Shown here in pieces: positions 13,642 to 32,845 of a stretch of 48,884 nt of DNA (its first letter is position 1; each line of letters starts with the position of its first letter). The notes beneath the pieces are model-generated. The model searched no databases and was not told the DNA's origin. It saw only the letters and a program-made list of their open reading frames with translations. This DNA comes from Sebaldella sp. S0638 (GTDB taxonomy: Bacteria; Fusobacteriota; Fusobacteriia; Fusobacteriales; Leptotrichiaceae). Both the position numbers and the translations under genes were made by a program. Location of the stretch: the NCBI RefSeq assembly GCF_024158605.1, contig NZ_JAMZGM010000022.1, forward strand, positions 1 through 48,884, read 5' to 3'.

Positions 13642-16600
13642 TTAAAATACTGCTTTTAATGTTAATCCTACTTTGTAGTCATCTTCATTATTATTTCCTA
13701 CTCCGTATTCCCCTGAAAGGAATATTCCGTATCTGTCTTTTGCTTCTATTCCTACTGATGCTCTTGTTCTTAATGTTCCTTTTTCATCTTCCGGTTTCGA
13801 TAATTTATGATAATTATTTTCTACTGCTGTTAATTTTGCATATTCTCTTTCGTTCAGATCAGCAAGTTCATATTCATATGCTACATCAAGAGCTCCTTTC
13901 AGCTGCCATCCTGAATTAGACAATGGTACTGCTGTTTTTAGTTCTACCCCTGCTCTTGGTTTTACACTCCATGCATCATTTCCTTCTACTTTCAGCGATT
14001 CTTCCCCGTTTTCACTAAAATCAGGTCTTGTTACATACATTGCACGCAATGCTCCATATGGTGTTATTGTTGTATTTTTTCCTGCCGAAAGTTCTTTCCC
14101 CAGAATGTTGTCACTTGTTATACTGTATGTTTCATAAGTTCCGTTCATTTCTGATCGTCCTGACGGCGAAGGCCAGTCAAGATTTCTGTCTATATTATGA
14201 AAACTTACTCTTCCTGTAAGATCATTTTTCAGATTCCATCCATTTGTCTTATATTTATTGTGAATTCCTAACTGCACAGTATCTACCCATTCTTCGCTGC
14301 TGTTTCCGTCTTTAAACTCAAATCCTGTGTGCAGATATCCCAGTGAGTAACCAAATGTATTCTTGTAAGTTCTTTCCACTTCACGAAGGGCAAGAACTCC
14401 TGTTGTTGTATAATCATAGTTTACAATACCGTCTGTATCCTCTTTTGTTCTTCCTTTTCCTGCTATTACATTTATCTTTACATTCTCTTTTGTATTGTTC
14501 TCGGAATTCTGCATTAAAGCCATTGAATTTTCAAGACTTCTTGCTATATCTTCTTCACGCTGGTTTATATTAGCATAAATATTTCCTGCGAGACCTTCCA
14601 TAACATGTCTGAAATCTTTTTCATTCTCTATAAGATCCAGCTTGTCATAAATTTTCCCTGCATCTCCTGTGGCATTATAGTAATTTTCATCAAGAGCTTT
14701 TCCGAAATCATCATACCATAACCCGTCAGTAAAATCATGATAATCTTTTTTTGACATATAGATATCTATATTCCCGTCTGAATTTACTGAAGGTGTAGCT
14801 TCCCATGTAAGTGAGTTACTTACCACCGGCAGCTTTCCGCTGGCAGATATAATATTGCTTGATATAAAAGCATTTTCCAGTTTATACACTTTAGCGTTTG
14901 TTCCCTGAGAAAAATCAGGAAGAATTTTTACTGTATCAGTTATTGTAAGTGTATCTGCCGATATACTTCCGCTGTCCATTATAAAGTCGATTCCTGCAAT
15001 TGTTGACTCCTGTAATGTACTCAAGTCAGGCTTTAAAGATATCTTCATCCCGGTATTTTCAAAGTTTCCGTTCACACGAATAATCCCGGCATTTATAAGC
15101 TCTGGTATTGCATACTCATTATCAGCTGCTGTCATTTTTGCACCATTTATGAAATTTATAGTTCCGTTATTAATTATTTTCCCATTTGGAGCTATTATTC
15201 CGACACTATCTGATCCTGATACATTTATAGTCCCCTGATTATCTATTACTGTATTTAAAGTCCCGTAAATCCCTGTTGCATTCTGACCTTCCACTGTTAT
15301 TGTTGCTAAGTTAGTTACTTTTTGAGAATTTTTCCCGGCTATTCCTATTACATCATTTCCGTATAAAGTAATATTTCCATGATTCTCTACTCCGGCTCCG
15401 CCGTCTGAAAAAATTCCTATTGCTCCGTTTTTAGGTGCCGAAGAACTTCCTGTAGTTATATTTCCATAGTTTAATGCTGTTACTGTATTATCTTTTACGT
15501 ATAATCCCACTGCATTATTTCCAATAGTTAAATTTCCGTGATTCTCTACTGTTGACAATTCTCCGTAAATACCCACTGCATATTTACTGTTTATAATATC
15601 AACATCTCCAAATGAATCATAAGCAAACGTTGTGTCTCCTACTGCTATATTTCCGGTATTTGTGATGCTTCCACCTTTATTATATATACCTATATTACTC
15701 TTTCCGGCATCTGCTGCTATATTTCCGGCATTTAATACTGCTCCGCCGTTTGTTGTATAAATTACTATATTGTTTGAACCTGTTACGCCTATACTTCCGC
15801 CCGCTGTATTTGTGATTGTTCCGGCACCATCACCGTAAACAAATACTGTATTTTCACCTAATATCTGTGCCGCTGTATTAGTAACGTCTGTTCCTGTTTC
15901 AGCTATAAATCCGTAACTTCCATTCCCTATTCCAATATTAGCAAGGTTATTCTGAATATTGGCATTATTAGTCCCATATACCCCGACTGCTGTATTTGTT
16001 CCTATATTCATAGAGCCCGTACTGCTTATTATTACATTTCCTCCGTCTGAATAAATTCCGGTACCGCTGCTGCCTATATTAAGATGTCCGCTTTCATTTA
16101 CAGTTCCGCCTTTGCTGTAGATTCCCAGCGTATTCGTCCCTGTTGTAATTGTTCCGGTATTTAAAATTGTATTTCCGGCACCTGTATTATAAATTGCCAT
16201 TCCCGGATTACTTCTGTCAGAAGAATTTCCTATTTCTATAGTCATTGTATTTTCTATATTCTGTATTCCAGAGCCTGTAGTATATATTCCTACAGAATTT
16301 TCTCCTGTCAGCTTTATTTCATCTGATGTTCTTATCAGTGTAGGAGTTCCGCCGCTATAGTCAGAAATTATCCCAACAGCTGCATTTGATGAACTAAGTA
16401 TTTTTCCTGAATTCAGTGTTCCTGTGAGTACCCCGTCTTTCAGATATATCCCTTTTGAGTTTTCTCCTACATTAATTGTTCCTTTATTTTCTACATCATT
16501 TACACTTGTACCGTATAATCCTACAGAATTTTTACCTGCGGAAATTGTCCCTTCATTTAACATTGCTGCATTATTCTTAGCATAAAGAGCGGCTGAATTA

Positions 16601-19600
16601 TCTCCTAATGATATTATTCCTTTGTTTGTAAGTTCTTTATCAGCAGTAGTACTCAAAAATGCAAAAGGCTTTCCTCCGTTATATGCTCCGTCAGCAATTC
16701 CTGCTATTGTACTGCTTTCTGTTGTAGTGATATTTGCTCCGCTGTCAAATAATATAATAGAATTTTTGCCTGTTGCCATTACACTTTTAGTATTTAATGT
16801 TCCCGAAGTATTATAGTAAAAACCGGCATTTTCTATATTTCCGCCGATATAGCTTCCTGATCCGTTTATACTAAATCCTGAAAAATTAATATAATCCGTA
16901 CTTGGCGCTGATTTTTGCATATTGAATAATACGGAATTATTACCGCTTACATTAAAAGCCCCGCTTCCTGCAAAAGAAGTTGTTCCTGCAAGATTGAATC
17001 CTACCGCATTATCTCCGGATAAATTCATAGTTATGCTGCTTAAACTGACAGAACTGTCTTCAAGATGCATTCCTATACCATTTTTCCCTACTGTTATCGC
17101 ACCGCCGCCGCTGATTGTTGTATTTTTCCCGTATACCCCTACTCCATTATCTGCTGCGCTCATATTTATATCAGAATTAGTTCCGAGTTTTATTGTGGAA
17201 TCTATTACTCCAACTGCTGTATTGTTAGCATATATTCCTATTCCTGCTGTTGTTCCGTTTGTTTTTATTTCTCCGTCGTTTTCTATTTCTATTTCCTGAT
17301 TACCGTATCCTGGTAAAGCAGCAGTAAGCAGGTTTCCACCGTATATTCCTATACCGTTATTTCCGATTTCTATTTTCCCTGTATTTTTACTAATTGTCCC
17401 GTTTGCACCATATATTCCTATTGAGCTGTCTCCTGTGGAACTTATTAATCCTGTATTACTTATATTTCCATAATCCGTTACTATCCCTATTACATTCTGA
17501 CCTTTTTGATTTATTGTTCCGTTATTTATAACAGTTACTTCGTCTCTTCCGCTTGTTCCTGTATAATTTCTCTGTCCTATTGCAGATACGTTATTTCCTG
17601 TTCCTGAAATTACTACTCCGCTATTAACAGTCGTTTTTGACGACATAAAGTCCAGTCTGTTATATGCATCGTTTACATCATCCAGATTTACATTCTGATC
17701 TACTATAAGGGCTCCTTTAAATACCGCATAAGGCTTGTATCCTGTCCCTGTAATACTTACTTTTGATGATGGAATCAGTGATTCTATTGCAGAACTTGAT
17801 GAACTGCTCAAATATATATCATTAGCCGGTGAATCAAGTATAAACAGTCTTGAATCAGAGCTTGCCATATTTAGATTAAGTTTTCCGCTTCCTGTAAATA
17901 CACTGTTTATAAAATTAGTAATCTGAGTAAGGTCATCTTTCAGATAAAAGGCTGTTCCTCCTGCATTTATTGTTGCATTTACTGTCCCTGTTATATTTAT
18001 GTGACCTGTAGATGTTGTTGCAGAAGAATTCTTATATGTATAAAACAAAAGACCTTTATCATTTGCTTCCAATGATGCTCCGCTAATATTTATTGTTGCG
18101 TTATCACCTGCAAAAAAACCTATTCCGTTATTTGATACCTTTACCGTTCCGCCGTTTATATTTGTCTTATTATTATTGTCAGCCCCGTAAATTCCCACTG
18201 ACTGATCTCCTGATGCATCTATTGTTCCGGCTGTCATGGTAAATTCTCCCATGTTCGCTATACCTACTGATTTTGTTCCCAGTACTGTTATTATCCCGCT
18301 GTTAAATCCCGCAGCTCCTGAAAGTATTGCCATTCCCTGAGATTCATCTGAGTTTATTATTATTTCTCCTACAGCACTATTCGTTGCTTCTCCGCCATTT
18401 GCAGAAAGAAGTACCGTGGTTTTATAAAGACCTGCGCCTATATCTATTTTTGCTTTATTTTCTACTTTTGCAGTATATAGAGGGTCTGATGAATTTGCTG
18501 TTGCCGAATTATTGGCAAGCATTACTATATTATCTGATTTTCCTGCTGAAAGTACCGTAGTTAAAGTAAGATCTTTTTCCAGCACTAACTTTGATCTGTC
18601 ACTTCTTATAAGTACTGATTTTGATGCTTCTGTACCAAAATTCAGACTTTCTACATTTATATTTTTTAATACTATATCCCCGAATGGAGTTCCTGTAGAA
18701 TCATCTTTTTCCACATAATTAGCATTTCTTAGTATTCCTATTCCTTCAGTCCCGTTTACTGTTATATTCAGATTTCTTATATTACCTATAAGATCTGTTG
18801 AATCTGAAGCTGACAGCCCTTGAACAGCAGCTACCTGTGTAGAACCTGTTATTTTCTTTGACAGAGAAATTCCTACGTTTTGTGTTCCGCCTACAGTTAC
18901 CATTCCTCCTGAACCGTCTACAATTGTCTCTTTAAAGTAATTTTGTTCTTTTCCGTTACTGCTGTATGTTACTGTTCCTAACTGGCTTGTTCTTGAATAA
19001 GCCCCTCCGAGATTTCCATAATCAAAAATATTCGGAATTCTTATACCATAGTTTGAACTGCCGTTTATCTCTATATTTCCCGGCTTTACATATATTGTCA
19101 TTGGATTAGATCCATCTGATGACGGAACCGTATATTTTGCAAAATCTATTCCTATACTTTCCTGACTGTTTATTACTATTTTTCCTCTGTTTTCAGCTGT
19201 GGCGTATATAGGCAGATTTTCCATTGGTCTGCATACTCCTGAAGCACATGTTGTATCTATAGGTATTTTAGTATAATCATCTCTATAGTATGGACTTTCT
19301 ATCATTAATGTCATACCAAAAAGATTTTTACCGCTTTCTAAAGTAAGAGTGGCTCCGGGATCTATAATTGCCTTTGCACTCAAAGCATCATACGCCTGAT
19401 ATTCTATTCCTACTGTCATGTGACCGTCGCTTCTTCCATGTATAACAGCATCTCCTGCGAGATGGAATTCCGTATTCAGATGTCTTGCTCCATAAGCATG
19501 GTTTACACTGACGAATCTTGCAGTATTTACACTTCCTGTTGTCTGGTCTCTGTACACCCAGTTTCCGCTGAGTGTCGATGATCCTGCAAGAACATTTAAA

Positions 19601-20469
19601 AATGTATGAGGATAGCTGCTTCCATTCATTGTATAAGTATTAGTATTAACTGTTCCTGAAGTAGTTACACTGTCATTATACCCGCTCCATGTGAAACCTG
19701 ATCCTGTTATTGAAAACTGTGAAGTTCCAAGTGAAGTTACTGTTGTTGTTCCGCTTATTGGTGCAGCACTGGCATTTCCTAATATAACATTTACCTGTGG
19801 TATAAATCCAACAGGGTCTCCCTGTGCAAAACCTGATGATACTTTATCCAATGCAGGTGGTGTAAATATAGAAGGAGTACTTATAACCGGTGCTGTTGGT
19901 GTAAACGCCGGCAAGTTTACATTTCCTACCACAGGTGCAGCAGGTACTGTTACATTTACAGTTACTTCTTCTATATCTGGAAGTTTTACTTCCCCCGGAT
20001 TTATAGATAAAGCCCCCAGGCTCAATCCTTTTACCGGTATACTCATACCAAGATTAATTGTCTTTACTTCCTGGACAGGCATATAAGGTTTTCCTTCTGT
20101 TACCACATATTCCCCGTCTGCATTATAATATCCTTCTGTTTCTGAACGGTACTTTGCATTTCCGGATGTATTATCTCCCCGTCCTCTTTCTGAATAAAAT
20201 CCTGTAACAAACCATTGCCATTCAAGGTATTCCGGTTTCACCACATAATCGCCTTGCATATACAAATCCTTTAATTCTGCATTTTTTTTATTCAGAACCT
20301 TCTCTATCAATTTATAATTTTCATTATTTGACTTTCCTGCCTCAATATTTTTTACCATTTTATTGAATAATCTGTCATTTTTTATCGCTTCGGCATTATT
20401 GCCTGTACCAGCATTTAGTATAGAATTCATCGCTAAAAATCCTACTAATAATCTTTTATTTTTTATCAT
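13642..20469 (-). CDS. Giant autotransporter adhesin (type V secretion)
   Basis: 2275 residues. Residues 1-28 form a signal peptide ending near NNAEA. Residues ~30-130 form a charged helical and aromatic N-terminal module, including WQWFVTGFYSERGRGD, as in fusobacterial autotransporters. Residues ~130-190 are Pro/Val/Thr-rich (PAAPVV, FTPTAP). A very long passenger (~190-1950) repeats motifs such as NxGTINVG-NSVGIY-K, typical of a right-handed beta-helix. The last ~280 residues are an autotransporter barrel with alternating aromatic strands, the DLNEREYAKL loop and a C-terminal Phe (TLKAVF). Only two cysteines, in a CASGVC loop, were noticed. Function is probably adhesion or surface display; no protease triad was seen. 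It is monocistronic, with its own promoter 100 bp upstream and a GGAGA ribosome site. Confidence 0.93.
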   Translation of the reverse strand: MIKNKRLLVGFLAMNSILNAGTGNNAEAIKNDRLFNKMVKNIEAGKSNNENYKLIEKVLNKKNAELKDLYMQGDYVVKPEYLEWQWFVTGFYSERGRGDNTSGNAKYRSETEGYYNADGEYVVTEGKPYMPVQEVKTINLGMSIPVKGLSLGALSINPGEVKLPDIEEVTVNVTVPAAPVVGNVNLPAFTPTAPVISTPSIFTPPALDKVSSGFAQGDPVGFIPQVNVILGNASAAPISGTTTVTSLGTSQFSITGSGFTWSGYNDSVTTSGTVNTNTYTMNGSSYPHTFLNVLAGSSTLSGNWVYRDQTTGSVNTARFVSVNHAYGARHLNTEFHLAGDAVIHGRSDGHMTVGIEYQAYDALSAKAIIDPGATLTLESGKNLFGMTLMIESPYYRDDYTKIPIDTTCASGVCRPMENLPIYATAENRGKIVINSQESIGIDFAKYTVPSSDGSNPMTIYVKPGNIEINGSSNYGIRIPNIFDYGNLGGAYSRTSQLGTVTYSSNGKEQNYFKETIVDGSGGMVTVGGTQNVGISLSKKITGSTQVAAVQGLSASDSTDLIGNIRNLNITVNGTEGIGILRNANYVEKDDSTGTPFGDIVLKNINVESLNFGTEASKSVLIRSDRSKLVLEKDLTLTTVLSAGKSDNIVMLANNSATANSSDPLYTAKVENKAKIDIGAGLYKTTVLLSANGGEATNSAVGEIIINSDESQGMAILSGAAGFNSGIITVLGTKSVGIANMGEFTMTAGTIDASGDQSVGIYGADNNNKTNINGGTVKVSNNGIGFFAGDNATINISGASLEANDKGLLFYTYKNSSATTSTGHINITGTVNATINAGGTAFYLKDDLTQITNFINSVFTGSGKLNLNMASSDSRLFILDSPANDIYLSSSSSSAIESLIPSSKVSITGTGYKPYAVFKGALIVDQNVNLDDVNDAYNRLDFMSSKTTVNSGVVISGTGNNVSAIGQRNYTGTSGRDEVTVINNGTINQKGQNVIGIVTDYGNISNTGLISSTGDSSIGIYGANGTISKNTGKIEIGNNGIGIYGGNLLTAALPGYGNQEIEIENDGEIKTNGTTAGIGIYANNTAVGVIDSTIKLGTNSDINMSAADNGVGVYGKNTTISGGGAITVGKNGIGMHLEDSSVSLSSITMNLSGDNAVGFNLAGTTSFAGSGAFNVSGNNSVLFNMQKSAPSTDYINFSGFSINGSGSYIGGNIENAGFYYNTSGTLNTKSVMATGKNSIILFDSGANITTTESSTIAGIADGAYNGGKPFAFLSTTADKELTNKGIISLGDNSAALYAKNNAAMLNEGTISAGKNSVGLYGTSVNDVENKGTINVGENSKGIYLKDGVLTGTLNSGKILSSSNAAVGIISDYSGGTPTLIRTSDEIKLTGENSVGIYTTGSGIQNIENTMTIEIGNSSDRSNPGMAIYNTGAGNTILNTGTITTGTNTLGIYSKGGTVNESGHLNIGSSGTGIYSDGGNVIISSTGSMNIGTNTAVGVYGTNNANIQNNLANIGIGNGSYGFIAETGTDVTNTAAQILGENTVFVYGDGAGTITNTAGGSIGVTGSNNIVIYTTNGGAVLNAGNIAADAGKSNIGIYNKGGSITNTGNIAVGDTTFAYDSFGDVDIINSKYAVGIYGELSTVENHGNLTIGNNAVGLYVKDNTVTALNYGNITTGSSSAPKNGAIGIFSDGGAGVENHGNITLYGNDVIGIAGKNSQKVTNLATITVEGQNATGIYGTLNTVIDNQGTINVSGSDSVGIIAPNGKIINNGTINFINGAKMTAADNEYAIPELINAGIIRVNGNFENTGMKISLKPDLSTLQESTIAGIDFIMDSGSISADTLTITDTVKILPDFSQGTNAKVYKLENAFISSNIISASGKLPVVSNSLTWEATPSVNSDGNIDIYMSKKDYHDFTDGLWYDDFGKALDENYYNATGDAGKIYDKLDLIENEKDFRHVMEGLAGNIYANINQREEDIARSLENSMALMQNSENNTKENVKINVIAGKGRTKEDTDGIVNYDYTTTGVLALREVERTYKNTFGYSLGYLHTGFEFKDGNSSEEWVDTVQLGIHNKYKTNGWNLKNDLTGRVSFHNIDRNLDWPSPSGRSEMNGTYETYSITSDNILGKELSAGKNTTITPYGALRAMYVTRPDFSENGEESLKVEGNDAWSVKPRAGVELKTAVPLSNSGWQLKGALDVAYEYELADLNEREYAKLTAVENNYHKLSKPEDEKGTLRTRASVGIEAKDRYGIFLSGEYGVGNNNEDDYKVGLTLKAVF

Positions 20470-23298: not shown

Positions 23299-24330
23299 AT
23301 GGAAAGAATTAAGAAATTTTCATTTTTATTTTTTCTTTTTTTGTTTGTAAGTACAATATTTTATGCGTGTACGGTCATTTACTGGAATAAAATTCCAGAT
23401 AAATTGATTGGGAGAAATATGGATTGGTATGCAAATGTAGAAACAGAATTTTGGGTACTTCCCAGAGGTATAAAAAGAGACGGGATGGTTGGTAAGAACA
23501 GCATGAAATGGGAATCTAAATACGGAAGTACTATTGTTTTCTTTGAAGCACCTATTGACGGAATGAATGAAAAAGGATTAACCGGTCATGTTTTATGGCT
23601 CGGAGAAGCAGATTTCGGTAAAAGAAATGAAAAAACACAAGGTATGGCGTTAGGTTTCTGGCTGCAATATTATCTTGATAACTTCGCTACTGTTAAAGAA
23701 GCTGTGGATTTTACCAAAAAAACTAATTTCCAATTAGTCGATACAGAATTCGAAGGAAGAAAAGTCGGAGTTCATTTATACTTAGCTGATGAAAGCGGAA
23801 ATATCGCCGTAATAGAATATGTTAACGGAAAACCTGTAATTTATCACGGAAAAGAATATGTCGTCATGACAAATTCACCTACTTATGATAAACAGATTGA
23901 GAACTTAGAGCAGTATAAAGTTTTCGGAGGGTCAAAAGAACTTCCGGGAAGCTCTGAAGCAGCAGACAGATTCGTAAGAGCTATGTATTATCTTGAAAAT
24001 TTACCGCTGCCTACTGATTATGAAGATGGAATTGCTAAAATATTCAGTGTAACAAGAAATGTTTCCCAGCCTTTCAGAATTAATAACAATCCCGACAGAC
24101 CAGACAGCAGCACTACCAGATGGAGAAGTGTTATAGACATAACAAATAAAATTTACTACTTTGAGGCAACAAACAGCCCTAATTTAGTCTGGCTGGACAT
24201 GAAAAAAGTAAATTATGAAAAAGGTTCTGATCTTATGAAAGTGAGAATACAGCCTAATGACAATATTGGCAATATAACTGCTAAACTCCAGAAAACAGAA
24301 ATGTATACAATACCATTACCCGCAAAATAA
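23299..24330 (+). CDS. Secreted choloylglycine hydrolase/penicillin V acylase-family enzyme (Ntn hydrolase)
   Basis: 343 residues. Residues 1-23 are a signal peptide ending FYA, directly followed by Cys24, so export processing would expose the catalytic N-terminal cysteine of this Ntn-hydrolase family. Other family active-site positions are visible: Arg39 and Asp42 in GRNMDWY, Asn192 in MTNSPTYD, and Arg274 in TTRWRS. Family members cleave linear amides: conjugated bile salts, penicillin V or N-acyl homoserine lactones. The exported form groups with the Gram-negative branch. A FadL-type porin gene follows 23 bp later, so the substrate or the released product may be lipid-like. Which amide is used cannot be told from sequence. 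FYAC is a poor lipobox, so a lipoprotein is less likely. Confidence 0.88.
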   Translation: MERIKKFSFLFFLFLFVSTIFYACTVIYWNKIPDKLIGRNMDWYANVETEFWVLPRGIKRDGMVGKNSMKWESKYGSTIVFFEAPIDGMNEKGLTGHVLWLGEADFGKRNEKTQGMALGFWLQYYLDNFATVKEAVDFTKKTNFQLVDTEFEGRKVGVHLYLADESGNIAVIEYVNGKPVIYHGKEYVVMTNSPTYDKQIENLEQYKVFGGSKELPGSSEAADRFVRAMYYLENLPLPTDYEDGIAKIFSVTRNVSQPFRINNNPDRPDSSTTRWRSVIDITNKIYYFEATNSPNLVWLDMKKVNYEKGSDLMKVRIQPNDNIGNITAKLQKTEMYTIPLPAK

Positions 24331-26490: not shown

Positions 26491-28950
26491 TTATTCGATT
26501 TCTGGTGTTATTTTTACTGTTGATGCTACTTTTTCATTTTCTCTTACTTTCATTATTCTTACTCCTGATGTAGCTCTTCCTATTACAGATATAGATCCTA
26601 CCTCTGTTCTTATCAGCGTTCCTTCAGAAGTTATCAGCATAATTTCAGAATTATCATCTACTATTTTTACATCTGTGATTTTTCCTGTTTTAGCATTTTT
26701 CTTTAAGTTTGTTATTCCTTTTCCGCCACGTGACTGTAATCTGTAATCTTCCAGCTTCGTTCTCTTTCCATAACCCTCTTCAGCTATAGTCAGTATTGTT
26801 TTCTGGCTGATATCTTCCGAAGCATATATTATCGCACCGGCAACGACTACGTCATTTGGTCTCAGAGTAATACCTTTTACTCCTGCTGCAGTTCTTCCCA
26901 TACTTCTTACATCATGTTCAGAGAATCTTATGGCAAAACCTTCTCTTGTAGCAAGGAATACTTCATCTTTCTGTGTTCCCGAAGTTAATCCTGCATAGAT
27001 CAGTTCGTCGTCATCTTTTAGTCCTATCGCTTTTATTCCTGCTTTATTTATGCTGGCAAAAAGCTCAAGACTTGTTTTCTTGACAACTCCTTTTCTAGTC
27101 AAAAAGAATATATCCTTGTCTTTCTCAAATTCTCTTACTTTTATTATTGTGCTGACTGTTTCGTCTTCCTGAAGCTTTATGATATTGCTTATCAGTCTTC
27201 CTCTTGCCTGCTTGCTCGCTTCTGGTATTTCATAAACTTTTATATCATGCACTTTTCCTTTTGTTGTAAAAATCAGTAAAGAATCAAGATTTTTAGCGAT
27301 ATACATATCTTTTATGATATCATCTTCAAGGATATTCGTAGCACTTACTCCTATTCCGCCTCTTTTTTGTGCTCTGTAAACATCTATAGGAGTTCTTTTT
27401 ACGTAACCTTTATCTGTAAGCGTTACTACTACTTCCTCATCCTTAATCAGATCTTCTATCCCTATTTCTACTCTCGCATCTCTTATTTCTGTTCTTCTAG
27501 GGTCAGAAAAATCTTCTTTAATTTTCTTTACTTCTTCTTTTATTATAGCATAAATTTTATCCGGATCGCTTAAAATAGCTTTTAATTCTTCTATTAATAA
27601 CATTAATTCCTTGTATTCTTCTTCTATTTTTTCTCTTTCCAGACCTGTAAGCCTTTGTAATCTCATATCAAGAATTGCTTTTGCCTGAACTTCCGAAAAA
27701 GCAAAACCTGCCATTAATTTTTCCTTGGCTTCATTTCCGTCCTGTGATCCTCTGATAATTTTTATTATTTCGTCAATATTATCCAGAGCTATTTTAAACC
27801 CTTCCAATATATGAGCTCTTTTTTCAGCTTTGTCCAGTTCGAATTTAGTTCTTCTCGTAACCACTGAATATCTGTGTTTCAGATAATTCTGAAGAATTTC
27901 TTTCAGATTCAGTACTCTTGGCGCATTATCCACCAGTGCAAGGAATATAATACCGAAAGTATTCTGCAGATCAGTATACTTATAAAGGCTGTTCAGGATT
28001 AATTCGCTTTCTTCTCCTCTTTTCAGCTCTATTACGACTCTTATACCATCTCTGTCAGATTCATCTCTAAGATCTGATATTCCTGTTAATTTTTTATTTC
28101 TTACAAGTTCGGCAATTCTTTCTATAAGTCTCGCCTTATTTACCTGATAAGGAAGCTCGTTAACTATAATTGATTCCTTACCGTTTTTACTTTCTTCTAT
28201 TTTTATTTTTCCCGCTACTCTTACTTTTCCTCTACCAGTCTTATAAGCTTCGATTATTCCGCTTTTTCCGTTTATTATACCTCCGGTAGGAAAATCAGGT
28301 CCTGTTATATGTGTTATCAGTTCTTCTATTGTTATATCAGGATTCTCTATCATTGCTACAATCCCGTCACATACCTCTCCTGCATTATGAGGCGGTATGT
28401 TCGTAGCCATACCCACGGCTATTCCTGTTGCACCGTTAAGAAGCAGATTTGGAAGTTTTGCGGGAAGAACTGTTGGTTCGTCCAGACTTTCATCAAAGTT
28501 CTTTCTGAAATCAATAGTATTTTTATCTATATCTTCCAGCAGCTCATTTGTAATTTTGGCCATTCTTGCCTCTGTATATCTCATTGCCGCTGCTCCGTCA
28601 CCATCTATTGAACCATAATTTCCGTGACCGTTTATTAAAAGGTATCTGGTATTGAATTCCTGAGCCAGTCTTACCATTGCACCGTATACTGCCGAATCCC
28701 CGTGCGGGTGATATTTACCCAGAACTTCCCCGACGATTCTTGCTGACTTTTTATACGGCTTATCATATGTCATCCCAAGTTCATTCATGGCAAATAAAAT
28801 TCTTCTGTGAACCGGCTTTAAACCATCTCTTACATCAGGAAGGGCACGGCTTACAATTACGCTCATGGAATAGTCCAGATAAGACGCTTTTATCTCGTCT
28901 TCAATATATATCGGCTTCTCCGTTAGAATTTCTGTTTCTTTAATTGACAT
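26491..28950 (-). CDS. gyrA: DNA gyrase subunit A
   Basis: 819 residues. With GyrB it introduces negative supercoils. The breakage-reunion domain has Tyr125 in [11 protein letters not shown] and the quinolone-determining stretch [14 protein letters not shown] (81-94). Ser86 corresponds to E. coli Ser83, but the position equivalent to Asp87 is Gly90. The C-terminal beta-pinwheel (from about 500) has a near-canonical GyrA box, QSRGGKG (canonical QRRGGKG), plus several blade repeats such as [10 protein letters not shown]. Full length for the family. It follows gyrB after 14 bp with a GAGGTG ribosome site. Confidence 0.97.
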
Positions 28951-28964
28951 TGTTCACCTCTTCT

Positions 28965-30893
28965 TTAGATATCTAAGTTTCTTACATAGTGTGCATGTTC
29001 TTCTATAAATTGTCTTCTTGGTTCTACTTTATCTCCCATTAAGACATTAAACATTTTATCTGCATATGTGGCATCTTCCAGTGATACTTTCAGTAAAGTT
29101 CTTACCTCAGGATCCATTGTTGTTTCCCACAGCTGTTCCGGATTCATCTCTCCCAGACCTTTATATCTCTGTAATCCGTATCTCTTATTTTCTTCATCCA
29201 TTACTTTTGTTACACTTTGCAGCTGCTCGTCTGAATACACATACTGTATCTGCTTTCCGGCCTGTATCTTATATAAAGGCGGCTGTGCTATATATATGTG
29301 TCCTTCGTTTATCAGTTCTCTTAAGTGTCTGTAAAAGAATGTAAGCATAAGAGTTCTTATATGCGCTCCATCCACATCGGCATCTGTCATTATTATAATC
29401 TTATGATATCTTAATTTTTCCAGATCCATTTCATCTCCGAAACCTGCACCAAAAGCTGTTATCATTGCTCTTATCTCTGCATTTTCCAGTGCTTTTCCTA
29501 TTCCTGCTTTTTCTACGTTTAATATTTTACCTCTCAAAGGAAGTATTGCCTGAAATCTTCTGTCTCTTCCCTGTTTTGCCGATCCGCCTGCCGAATCTCC
29601 TTCGACTATGTATATTTCACATTCTGAAGCGTCTTTTGACGAACAGTCTGCCAGTTTCCCCGGAAGTGATCCCACTTCAAGAGAGCTTTTTCTTAATACT
29701 AATTCTCTGGCTTTTTTTGCTGCTTCTCTGGCTTTTTTTGACATTAATATTTTTTCTATGATATTTGACGCTTCTTTAGGATGATCTTCCAGATACATCT
29801 TAAGCGAACTTCCCACTATTCCTGATACTACCCCTGTTATCTCACTGTTTCCGAGCTTTGTTTTTGTCTGCCCTTCGAACTGAGGCTCAGGTATTTTTAT
29901 ACTCAGGATAGCTACCAGACCTTCTCTTACATCAGAACCCTGAAAAGAACCGTCTTTATCTTTCACCAGTCCTATCTGCTTGGAAATTTCGTTCAGAACT
30001 CTGGTAAGCGCTGTTCTGTATCCGCTTACATGTGTTCCGCCTTCATGGGTATTTATGTTATTTACAAATGAGTAGACCATTTCTCTTTGTGAAATAGTAT
30101 ATGTCATGGCTATTTCCACTTCTACCCTTTTGTTATTGTCAAGTATCACGGCATCATCCATATATATGATATCATCTAACACTCTTTCATCATCAGCTAT
30201 TTCCGCAAGGAAATCCTTTATTCCTCCCTCAAAGTGAAGATCATCGGTTTTAGGTTTATCTTTATTTCTCTCATCACTAAGGATTATTTTCAGCCCTTTG
30301 TTCAAATAAGCCATCTCTTTTAATCTTGTGAGCAAAATTTCATAATCATATTCCAATGTTTCAAATATTTCATCATCAGCTTTGAATCTTATTGTAGTTC
30401 CGTGAACATCCTCAGGTGCTTCTCCTATCTGCTTGATGTCCTCCACGGCTACTCCTCTGTGGTACTTCTGATACCATATTTTTCCTTCTTTTGTTACAGT
30501 AGCCTCCAAAGTCTCAGACAGGGCGTTAACTACCGAAACTCCAACCCCGTGTAGTCCTCCCGAAACTTTATAGTTATCATTATTAAATTTTCCTCCCGCG
30601 TGCAGCACTGTTAAAACTACCTCAAGAGTTGATTTTCCCATTTTTTCATGCATTTCTACCGGGATACCTCTCCCGTTATCGATTACCTCTATTATATTAT
30701 CTTCCAGTACTCTTACTCTTATAGTGTCGCAAAATCCGGCCAAAGCCTCGTCCACACTATTATCCACTATTTCCCAGACTAAATGGTGAAGTCCCTTGGC
30801 CGAAGTCGAACCAATGTACATTCCTGGTCTTTTTCTAACGGCCTCGAGACCCTCAAGGACCGTTATACTCTCCGCGTTATAATTGTCGCTCAT
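28965..30893 (-). CDS. gyrB: DNA gyrase subunit B
   Basis: 642 residues from the ATG at 30893. A longer reading from 30935 starts inside the promoter region and lacks a ribosome site, whereas GGAGG is placed well before 30893. GHKL ATPase: Glu41 and Asn45 ([10 protein letters not shown]), Asp72 (DNGRGIPVE), lid GGLHGVG (112-118). Transducer domain, then the TOPRIM core with [15 protein letters not shown] and [12 protein letters not shown], and the C-terminal [13 protein letters not shown]. It supplies ATP-driven strand passage for gyrase. It has its own promoter in addition to any readthrough from upstream genes, and gyrA follows. Confidence 0.97.
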
Positions 30894-30925
30894 TTTTTCC
30901 TCCGTTCTATATTTCCATACTCTAT

Positions 30926-30954
30926 ATTTTATCATGTTTGTGACTTTTTATCAA
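30926..30954 (-). promoter_or_regulatory. Internal promoter for gyrB-gyrA
   Basis: On the minus strand TTGATA (30954-30949), 17 bp, TAAAAT (30931-30926), with a TGa extension before the -10 box. It lies in the 139-bp gap between the GyrB-like paralogue and gyrB. Confidence 0.65.
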
Positions 30955-31032
30955 TCAATTGATTTTAAAGTCTTTAGATATATTTAGGTGTAAAACTTTA
31001 AATATATTTAAACTCTTTATTTTTTTATATTT

Positions 31033-31713
31033 TCACTTTAAAAACTCTTTTATTTCCCCTTTGAAATAAAAATAGTCTGTTTTTATCTCTTTTATATTTC
31101 TCTCATCGCTTAAATGTATCTCTATTCCTTTTATTTTTTTCAATTCCTTTTGAAAAATTTCATAATTATATTCCAGTGTCTCAAAAATTTCCCTGTCTGC
31201 TAAAAACTTTATTACAGTACCATGTACCTCTGCAGGAGCTGTTTCTGTTTGTTTTACATTATCTTCGGGTATTCCTTTTTTATATTTCTGATACCACACT
31301 TTGCTGTCTCTTATTACACTAATCTCCAGAGTCTCTGATAAGACATTCACTGAAAGCAGTCCCCCTCTGTATTTTTTTGGGGAAAGCTTATAAATACCAT
31401 CTGTTAATTCTCCTCTAAAGTATTTTCCGGTAAGAATAATCTCAAGTATTGATTCCTTCTTTGTTTCATGTTTTTCTACAGTTATTCCCCTGCCGTTATC
31501 AGACACTTCTATTATACCGCCTTTAAGTAATCTTACGTTTATATTACTGCAAAATCCGGCTAAAGCTTCATTTACACTATTATCAATTAATTCCCAAACC
31601 ATATTATGAAGACCTTCATACGACACAGAACCGATAAACATCTCCGGCCTTTTTCTGATCCCTTCCCTTACCCCAAGAACAGCTATATTTTTTGTATCAT
31701 TATTTCTGTCCAT
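31033..31713 (-). CDS. Free-standing GyrB N-terminal ATPase-domain paralogue
   Basis: 226 residues, matching only the GHKL subdomain of GyrB. It aligns to the adjacent gyrB without gaps for about 190 residues, roughly half of them identical by eye. It stops where the transducer domain would begin (EIKEFLK against IKDFLAE). ATP-contact residues are kept: Glu41, Asn45 (ELIDNSVNEA), Asp72 (SDNGRGI) and the VHGT threonine. The lid loop GGLHGVG (112-118 in GyrB) has become PKKYRGG, and the preceding AGGKF lysine is lost. No TOPRIM or transducer remains. It has a good GGAGGG ribosome site and no frameshift. This looks like a partial gyrB duplication kept as an intact reading frame, perhaps a nucleotide-binding decoy or gyrase modulator, or an early pseudogene. 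Confidence 0.85.
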   Translation of the reverse strand: MDRNNDTKNIAVLGVREGIRKRPEMFIGSVSYEGLHNMVWELIDNSVNEALAGFCSNINVRLLKGGIIEVSDNGRGITVEKHETKKESILEIILTGKYFRGELTDGIYKLSPKKYRGGLLSVNVLSETLEISVIRDSKVWYQKYKKGIPEDNVKQTETAPAEVHGTVIKFLADREIFETLEYNYEIFQKELKKIKGIEIHLSDERNIKEIKTDYFYFKGEIKEFLK

Positions 31714-31733
31714 TTTCCCTCCGTTTTTATAAC

Positions 31734-31985
31734 TTAAAGATTTTTCAGTTTTTCCATTTCCTCAGCTCTCATTTTCAATGCTCTGTTTGTATAAGAACTT
31801 ACATATATAAATTCATTGGTCATTATTATTGTTCTCGGTTCTTTTCTGCTCAGGTCTATTACCTTTTTTCTGTATTTTTCCAGATAGTCTCTGTTTTTCT
31901 TATTTTTTACAAAGTCAGAATGTTCTATTATAAGGATTATATCTTTCAAAGGTATAAAATTATTATTTTCGATATAAATATACAT
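31734..31985 (-). CDS. remB: RemB/YaaB-like regulator (RemA family, DUF370)
   Basis: 83 residues. It begins MYIYIENNNFIPLKDIILII and has TIIMTNEFIYVSSYTNRALKMRAEEM, closely following the pattern of B. subtilis YaaB/RemB, which lies in the same place between recF and gyrB. RemA-family proteins are DNA-binding regulators of matrix genes in Bacillus; the role outside Bacilli is unknown. Its start overlaps the end of the DUF721 gene by one base, so translation is coupled. Confidence 0.85.
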   Translation of the reverse strand: MYIYIENNNFIPLKDIILIIEHSDFVKNKKNRDYLEKYRKKVIDLSRKEPRTIIMTNEFIYVSSYTNRALKMRAEEMEKLKNL

Positions 31986-32845
31986 TATATCCTTCCCCTC
32001 AGCTTTAAAAATTTTGTGAGCCTGTTCAAAAGCTCCTCTTTTACTTTATTTATTATAAATATTTCACTTGACCCGGTTCTGTACAATGCGTACTTTTCCG
32101 CAGCGCTGCCTGCTTCCTTGAGATTATTCTGCTCTATCAGCTCGGATACAAACAGTGTCAGATCTTCTGCCAGCTGATCCCTTGCCTTATAAAATTCTCC
32201 TTCTGTAAGCCCTTCTATCTCTCTTTCAGTTTCTCTATAGCTGATTACAGGATTCTTTTCTATGAGATTTTTTATTTTCCCCATTTTTTCATTCTCCAGA
32301 TCATTTCTGCATTTTATACATATTTCACCTTCACCCAGAAACAAATCACCGCATCTGTTACATTCTCTGTAGCCTTTTTTCAAAAGAATCTTTTCGTTAA
32401 TCTTGGAATTAAGAGCTATATTTTTTACCCTTTCGGCTAATTCATCATTTTCCGCAGAAGAGAAAAGTCCCTCTATCTTTTGCTTTTCTTCAGGGGTTAT
32501 TTCTGCTGTTTCTTCTGATTCTTCATAATCTTTATACATATCCCTGTTCTGATATATTTTTCCGCTTTTCATATAAATTTCACCCACTGCCGTACCGTAA
32601 AATTCCTCGTTAACATTTTCCAGTATAGTTTCCCTGTACATTTTCATTTCATTCATAATAAGATTATTTTCCACAATTACTGTTAACTTTCCTTTACTAA
32701 AAAAAGATGGAAAAGAATATTCCGCTATGACTTCCCCGACTATTTTTTTCCAGTTCTTTCTTATAATGTGTATCATATATCTGTCATCTTCAGTAATTTT
32801 GTTCATACTTACCTCACCGATTCTGTTCGGTTTCTTATTATTCAT
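31985..32845 (-). CDS. DUF721/DciA-like protein with zinc ribbon
   Basis: 286 residues. The N-terminal ~100 residues carry the DUF721 pattern: NWKKIVGEVIAEYSFPSFF, GKLTVIVENN and VGEIYMKSGK. DUF721 includes DciA, which loads the replicative helicase in bacteria lacking DnaC/DnaI. An acidic helical linker (100-155) leads to a four-cysteine zinc ribbon (Cys162, 165, 176, 179: CNRCG, CIKC), then a helical C-terminal part. The ATG at 32845 overlaps the recF stop. An alternative ATG at 32806 has a better ribosome site (GAGGT) and would give 273 residues, still keeping the domain. Its place between recF and remB fits a replication role. Confidence 0.8.
   Translation of the reverse strand: MNNKKPNRIGEVSMNKITEDDRYMIHIIRKNWKKIVGEVIAEYSFPSFFSKGKLTVIVENNLIMNEMKMYRETILENVNEEFYGTAVGEIYMKSGKIYQNRDMYKDYEESEETAEITPEEKQKIEGLFSSAENDELAERVKNIALNSKINEKILLKKGYRECNRCGDLFLGEGEICIKCRNDLENEKMGKIKNLIEKNPVISYRETEREIEGLTEGEFYKARDQLAEDLTLFVSELIEQNNLKEAGSAAEKYALYRTGSSEIFIINKVKEELLNRLTKFLKLRGRI

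Follow-up and report, generated by a model that had tools for sequence, protein, structure and literature searches.

The GyrB subunit normally works only within full gyrase. Its transducer domain takes part in GyrB dimerisation, and GyrI and MurI are among the proteins that modulate or inhibit the enzyme. Two further proteins, MfpA and YacG, are described in a review as acting on GyrB (PMC10886550), and a 24-kDa fragment of S. aureus GyrB is presented with novobiocin as structure 4uro (PMC7956263, Figure 2 legend). Here we describe a gene, called ghkl below, in a stretch of 48,884 nucleotides (the window) that forms contig NZ_JAMZGM010000022.1 of Sebaldella sp. S0638 (assembly GCF_024158605.1, a 4.27-Mb draft genome in 292 contigs). 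The gene (31033..31713, minus strand) lies between remB and gyrB and encodes, in an intact open reading frame (ORF) of 226 codons, a free-standing paralogue of the GHKL ATPase lobe of GyrB. We find that ghkl stems from a Sebaldella gyrB and is under purifying selection, not decaying. With a probability of roughly 0.42, we read it as a GyrB-derived GHKL pseudo-ATPase that has been retained for a role other than catalysis, most likely that of modulating gyrase.

In a single BLASTP comparison, 119 of 229 residues are identical between ghkl and the neighbouring GyrB (52%, E 5e-76), in agreement with the figure of about one half in a first-pass annotation made from the sequence letters. That annotation gave a gapless match of about 190 residues; the alignment is indeed gapless to ghkl residue 194, but the match runs further, past a four-residue deletion and on to residue 225. 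The transducer match (PF00204) in GyrB begins at residue 238 of a 656-residue ORF, which is residue 224 counted from the MSDNY start. The aligned GyrB stretch comprises residues 1–229, and the end of ghkl is thus at most five residues from the transducer boundary, where the copy had been said to stop. Two NCBIfam gyrB models match ghkl over their first ~230 positions (NF004189, 3.6e-60; TIGR01059, 1.6e-58), and because of these matches and of an orthologue at the equivalent locus in another species, chance resemblance to GyrB is excluded. Among Pfam domains, HATPase_c (PF02518) is found at 38.4 bits against a cut-off of 26.4, and the other GyrB domains (PF00204, PF01751 and PF00986) have no match in ghkl; the first-pass annotation had described a copy of only the GHKL subdomain of the adjoining GyrB. 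We rejected the assignment of ghkl as DNA gyrase subunit B (type IIA topoisomerase): the transducer, Toprim and C-terminal domains are missing, and the TIGR01059 score of 198.7 bits is below the cut-off of 882.4.

We surveyed 98 genomes of the phylum, with a gyrB match in 96; the two others are 67% and 81% complete. ghkl is carried by two of the 98, Sebaldella sp. S0638 (G000) and Sebaldella termitidis (G003), which are related gut bacteria. The S. termitidis orthologue (L037:4237-4917) is also 226 residues long and located between remB and gyrB, and the two proteins are 65–67% identical to each other. The gene is present in two of the four Sebaldella genomes. In G001, which is closest to G003 by gyrB (99.2% of 642 residues), ghkl has been deleted and a copy of its last 57 base pairs (bp) remains (49/57 identical; score 41, compared with at most 21 across 300 shuffles). 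In G002 no remnant of ghkl was found at the locus (score 15; shuffles mean 14.4). Both are drafts, 86% and 87% complete, with contigs that span the locus. The genome of S. termitidis NCTC 11300 was released in 2009 (PMC3035275); if G003 is this strain, the orthologue has been public since then.

Single residues are numbered here after the aligned E. coli K-12 GyrB, one higher than the Glu41, Asn45 and Asp72 of the first-pass annotation. These and the VHGT threonine had been listed as Mg-ATP residues kept in ghkl, and the alignment bears this out: E42, N46, D73 and T165 are retained, as are R76 and G77. The protein carries two hallmarks of GHKL ATPases, the Bergerat fold as judged by sequence, with motif N (PF02518; E42 and N46), and motif G1, DxGxG, with the adenine Asp and the later Gly-Thr (D73, G77, G164 and T165, which neither orthologue has changed). 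However, the third, a GxxGxG phosphate lid with its preceding lysine, is lacking from both orthologues. The GyrB loop GGLHGVG reads PKKYRGG in the window (codons 112–118; 31360..31380, minus strand), as had been seen, and RKKYKGG in the orthologue. The AGGKF lysine is gone, K103 being glutamate, and H38 and D49, which the first-pass annotation had not mentioned, are both asparagine. Because lid, lysine and histidine are lost, we infer that ghkl would not turn over ATP. Among what we take to be the base, Mg and drug contacts, 12/14 residues are kept in both orthologues, compared with 2/11 phosphate and catalytic residues on a list that we likewise assumed (p=0.0012). When V43, A47, D49, I94, R136 and V167 are added to the pocket and A100, S112 and V120 to the phosphate residues, these figures become 13/20 and 3/14 (p=0.017). 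The base and Mg pocket is thus largely preserved and the phosphate half largely lost. The loop belongs to a rewritten lid segment of 26 codons (93–118; 31360..31437, minus strand; ILTGKYFRGELTDGIYKLSPKKYRGG) in which 22/26 residues are identical between the orthologues and 7/26 between ghkl and GyrB. Over the 200 residues outside the lid, the corresponding counts are 126 and 112. In an alignment of ghkl with 30 other GyrB-type rows, invariance is 90% or higher at the majority of lid positions.

Selection was estimated with codon models that we wrote ourselves, not with a standard package. The pairwise maximum-likelihood ratio of nonsynonymous to synonymous rates (dN/dS) for ghkl is 0.130 (95% 0.070–0.214), and neutrality is rejected (p 2.4e-17). 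The ratio is 0.022 for gyrB (0.046 over its first 232 codons), 0.024 for gyrA, 0.017 for recF, 0.060 for dciA, 0.054 for remB, 0.019 for dnaA and 0.063 for yaaA. A branch model of seven sequences and 222 codons, from which the first three codons and gapped columns were dropped, gave 0.129 for the ghkl tips and 0.020 for the gyrB branches. Twice the log-likelihood difference (2dlnL) is 78.6 against a tip ratio of 1 and 25.7 against a tip ratio equal to that of gyrB; both are rejected. The same holds with six sequences and three placements of ghkl (74.3–75.4 and 21.7, respectively), and each ghkl tip alone rejects a ratio of 1 (2dlnL 7.4 and 19.7). The ratio of the ghkl stem is not identifiable, as it reached the upper bound of 20 in one fit (where a stem ratio of 1 is worse by a 2dlnL of 0.3) and was 0.28 or 0.155 in another, and we do not claim a burst of positive selection there. 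A look at relatives and at dN/dS, as the first-pass annotation had proposed, gave an orthologue at the equivalent locus and a non-neutral ratio, which argue against decay, but also one genome of four in the genus with a deletion and one without the gene.

The lid is the most constrained of the three segments of ghkl that were fitted. In separate fits, the ratio was 0.014 in the lid, 0.197 in the part N-terminal to it and 0.178 in the C-terminal part; with a shared branch length it was 0.040 in the lid and 0.143 elsewhere (p=0.0039). The lid codon differences between the orthologues comprise ten that are silent and four that change the amino acid. The segment was picked post hoc, as the strongest departure from GyrB, and its identity alone is only weakly above that of the rest (22/26 versus 126/200, p=0.03; three narrower cuts are not significant). 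The codon-based tests give stronger evidence than identity does. The first-pass annotation took the rewritten lid as a loss; the constraint on it fits a gained function.

The origin of ghkl was placed with a tree of 35 rows, consisting of the two ghkl sequences, 30 gyrB sequences of the phylum and three from Bacteroidota (left out were L032, read on the wrong strand, and L036, whose match contains a stop). The ghkl pair falls together with the gyrB rows of the four Sebaldella genomes (support 98/88). Branch lengths are 1.0 for the ghkl stem and 0.62 and 0.33 for the two ghkl tips, compared with 0.00–0.09 for the Sebaldella gyrB tips. An approximately unbiased (AU) test favoured neither order of the duplication and the split from G002 (p 0.138). 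The 33 gyrB rows have 93 invariant columns, of which 53 are unchanged in both ghkl orthologues; 20 carry the same change in both, nine are changed differently, six are changed only in G000 and five only in G003. Since the 20 identical changes and the four-residue deletion are common to both orthologues, they most likely arose before the species parted.

We propose that a duplication beside gyrB copied the opening ~229 codons of a Sebaldella gyrB along with its ribosome-binding site, and that the copy was probably placed under an upstream transcript ending in remB. Before the species split, the phosphate grip and the catalytic residues of the copy would have been lost and the basic lid KKY[RK]GG acquired; after it, selection has held the new form, and the lid segment strongly. 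With less certainty, ghkl may modulate gyrase as a partner without catalytic activity; the first-pass annotation had suggested a built-in modulator or decoy. The basic lid could offer a fixed surface to the strongly acidic GyrB ATPase lobe (net charge -13, compared with 0 and +2 for the lobe in the two ghkl orthologues) or to DNA at the N-gate, and the base pocket could be an optional ligand sensor. We suggest gyrase as the partner because of the GyrB origin, the gyrB neighbourhood and the basic face, as opposed to the acidic GyrB lobe; with location and origin as its guides, this modulation is a weaker proposal than the loss of hydrolysis. A version in which the lobe is a trans-acting pseudo-ATPase that controls gyrase or soaks up ATP-site inhibitors, with the former lid as a conserved basic contact surface, is more doubtful. 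We found only two gyrB-type places in the draft genome, ghkl and gyrB, of which gyrB is the only full-length one. Gyrase therefore seems to be its sole type IIA enzyme, and any effect of ghkl on it would hit both supercoiling and decatenation.

Several observations weigh against a pseudo-ATPase that modulates gyrase. The lobe comes without the transducer, the domain with a part in GyrB dimerisation, and three arm positions (Y5, G15 and L16) have changed in each orthologue, Y5 being asparagine in the window protein and phenylalanine in the other, which speaks against binding through the GyrB dimer arm. The gene is dispensable, as its deletion from G001 and absence from G002 indicate. The selection result comes from two ghkl sequences, and their dS is high, about 1–1.9, above that of neighbouring genes, so that the exact ratio is approximate. 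The lid is not unique in its identity between orthologues, as four of the 201 possible windows of 26 residues (starts 10, 90, 93 and 94) reach 22/26. Finally, an AlphaFold2 model of ghkl, built from only five alignment rows, has a mean predicted local distance difference test (pLDDT) score of 33.8 and is uninformative.

The main rival, which we consider unlikely, is that ghkl is a ligand sponge or sensor that takes up inhibitors of the gyrase ATP site, or a metabolite of adenine type, and so titrates them off GyrB, a task for which the phosphate lid is unneeded. Aminocoumarins bind the 24-kDa GyrB fragment to which the lobe corresponds, and the best sequence match of ghkl in the PDB, 4urm (8.7e-47), has a chain sequence in common with 4uro. 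Most of the pocket contacts listed above (12/14, or 13/20 with the added sites) are kept. In addition, the position of E. coli R136 is arginine or lysine in ghkl, and loss of the gene in one relative would fit varying exposure. However, a sponge leaves the constraint on the rewritten lid unexplained. Moreover, P79 is threonine in the window species, I78 is leucine in S. termitidis, and at V43, A47 and D49 at least one of the orthologues departs from GyrB.

The charge of the protein raises the prospect that the basic lid and the lost negative charge serve to bind DNA, RNA or an acidic partner other than gyrase, in a nucleic-acid-binding or regulatory protein. The lobe has a net charge of 0 and +2 in the two orthologues, against -13 in GyrB, and the lid +4/+6 against +1. 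Charge alone is weak evidence, however, Pfam finds HATPase_c and no nucleic-acid domain, and ghkl adjoins gyrB, all of which make such a role quite improbable.

We regard it as very improbable that ghkl is a functionless tandem partial duplicate in slow decay, the alternative raised in the first-pass annotation. The ratio is about six times that of gyrB, with equality rejected, dS exceeds that of the neighbours, and the gene is deleted in one relative and absent from another, all of which a decaying copy would explain. Against this, neutrality is rejected for the tips both jointly and singly, and the rewritten lid is itself conserved. A rough simulation of a 225-codon frame, taken to a neutral distance of 0.5, left it without a stop codon in 1/2000 runs. 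A pseudogene was likewise rejected, with the frame intact in both species.

The arrangement of the locus is consistent with separate expression of ghkl and gyrB. The upstream neighbour remB (31734..31985, minus strand; NF046065) is separated from ghkl by a 20-base gap after its stop that holds a Shine-Dalgarno-like GGAGGG (31717..31722, minus strand), and S. termitidis has GGAGG within a 23-base gap at the same place. From the spacing, remB and ghkl probably share one transcript. A promoter-like site for gyrB, TTGATA-17-TAAAAT with TG before the second hexamer, was found by a motif scan 3' of ghkl (30926..30954, minus strand). The scan alone proves nothing, as it returned four such sites in the region compared with a mean of 5.4 in shuffles; the argument for the site is its conservation among relatives, the motif being visible by eye 5' of gyrB in G001, G002, G003 and G004. 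It is likely that the upstream transcript includes ghkl and that transcription of gyrB starts separately. That the locus needs translation through the frame, for instance to insulate or couple remB and gyrB, and the protein itself is of little use, is hardly credible: the short gap and the promoter-like site would suit it, but selection acts on the amino acids, those of the lid segment in particular, and G001 manages without ghkl.

The full-length gyrB, the parent-type gene of ghkl, was identified with NCBIfam (28965..30893 from the MSDNY start, minus strand). Its start is more likely MSDNY at 30893, behind a GGAGG site, than MIKYRVW. The start of the longest gyrB ORF (MIKYRVW...; 30893-30935) overlaps the second hexamer of the promoter-like site. 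The next ORF (26491..28950, minus strand), used as a dN/dS yardstick, we take to be gyrA from its position and from GyrA motifs. The ghkl–gyrB spacer holds a 16-bp A+T palindrome, TTTAAATATATTTAAA (30997-31012), with a 14-bp core that is kept in G003 and G001 and not in G002. Elsewhere in the window are genes for a DciA-domain protein of 286 residues with paired CxxC motifs beyond the domain (31985-32845, minus strand), a 2275-residue autotransporter with a BigA beta-sandwich domain (13642-20469, minus strand) and a choloylglycine hydrolase family protein (linear amide C-N hydrolase; 23299-24330, plus strand).

Other short gyrB genes and mobile relatives of ghkl were also considered. Two gyrB matches occur only in the window genome, in G003 and in G087, and we rejected G087 as a carrier of a second short gene, as a single gyrB is split there across two contig ends. 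A short frame in G074 was rejected as well, being a frameshifted gyrB with its remainder in another frame. At this locus (L042, G074:C1:3103000-3108500) the frameshift, perhaps an assembly error, leaves a 227-residue frame in a one-contig genome. The survey also contains a gyrB frame of 459 residues in G097. In tblastn searches, all of 149 plasmid records and all of 144 phage records are below 60% identity. The best listed matches are 45.5%, to a 2.1-Mb Fusobacterium vincentii record, and 42.2%, respectively, and the annotated rows among the 12 matches listed for each are GyrB or ParE. The ghkl pair found four IMG/VR loci at 30–34% identity, and three PHROGs families match, the best being topoisomerase II large subunit (4.1e-28). 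No PADLOC family matches at E up to 1, and ghkl is no known anti-phage defence protein. On these searches we rejected an origin from a mobile element. A search of genome contigs with a single ghkl protein gave five loci of Bacteroidota or Ignavibacteria at 39–42% and missed both Sebaldella genes, and is thus no census.

A literature search of titles and abstract starts, which is not proof of absence, returned no title on a natural gene that encodes the GyrB ATPase lobe by itself. A natural, selected lone lobe without the phosphate grip would allow a direct test of whether gyrase is regulated, or protected from ATP-site inhibitors, by a spare piece of the enzyme. The closest structures are those of the 24-kDa N-terminal GyrB fragment (4urm/4uro, 1aj6 and 1kzn), with which ghkl shares its domain limits, its sequence-predicted fold and most pocket residues. 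However, these fragments are laboratory pieces of a working GyrB with a normal lid, whereas ghkl occurs naturally as a gene of its own and its lid is rewritten. Structure 3cwv, 'DNA gyrase, B subunit, truncated', which we take to be from Myxococcus xanthus, is like ghkl a natural shortened relative of GyrB (match 7.9e-08). At 369 residues it presumably comprises lobe and transducer, and it is distant from ghkl in sequence; no paper containing both 3CWV and gyrase was among the top-ranked literature matches. The divergent GyrB paralogue of Planctomycetes is, as described in PMC8567305, a GyrB duplicate with altered properties, as ghkl is, but not a lone lobe. The gyrase modulators YacG and MfpA/Qnr resemble the role proposed for ghkl in that a small protein made by the cell acts on gyrase; none of those described in the relevant passages of PMC10886550, whose main text does not mention GHKL, is a paralogue of GyrB. 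Unlike them, ghkl, if it indeed controls gyrase in trans, would be a regulator built from the enzyme's own ATPase gate.
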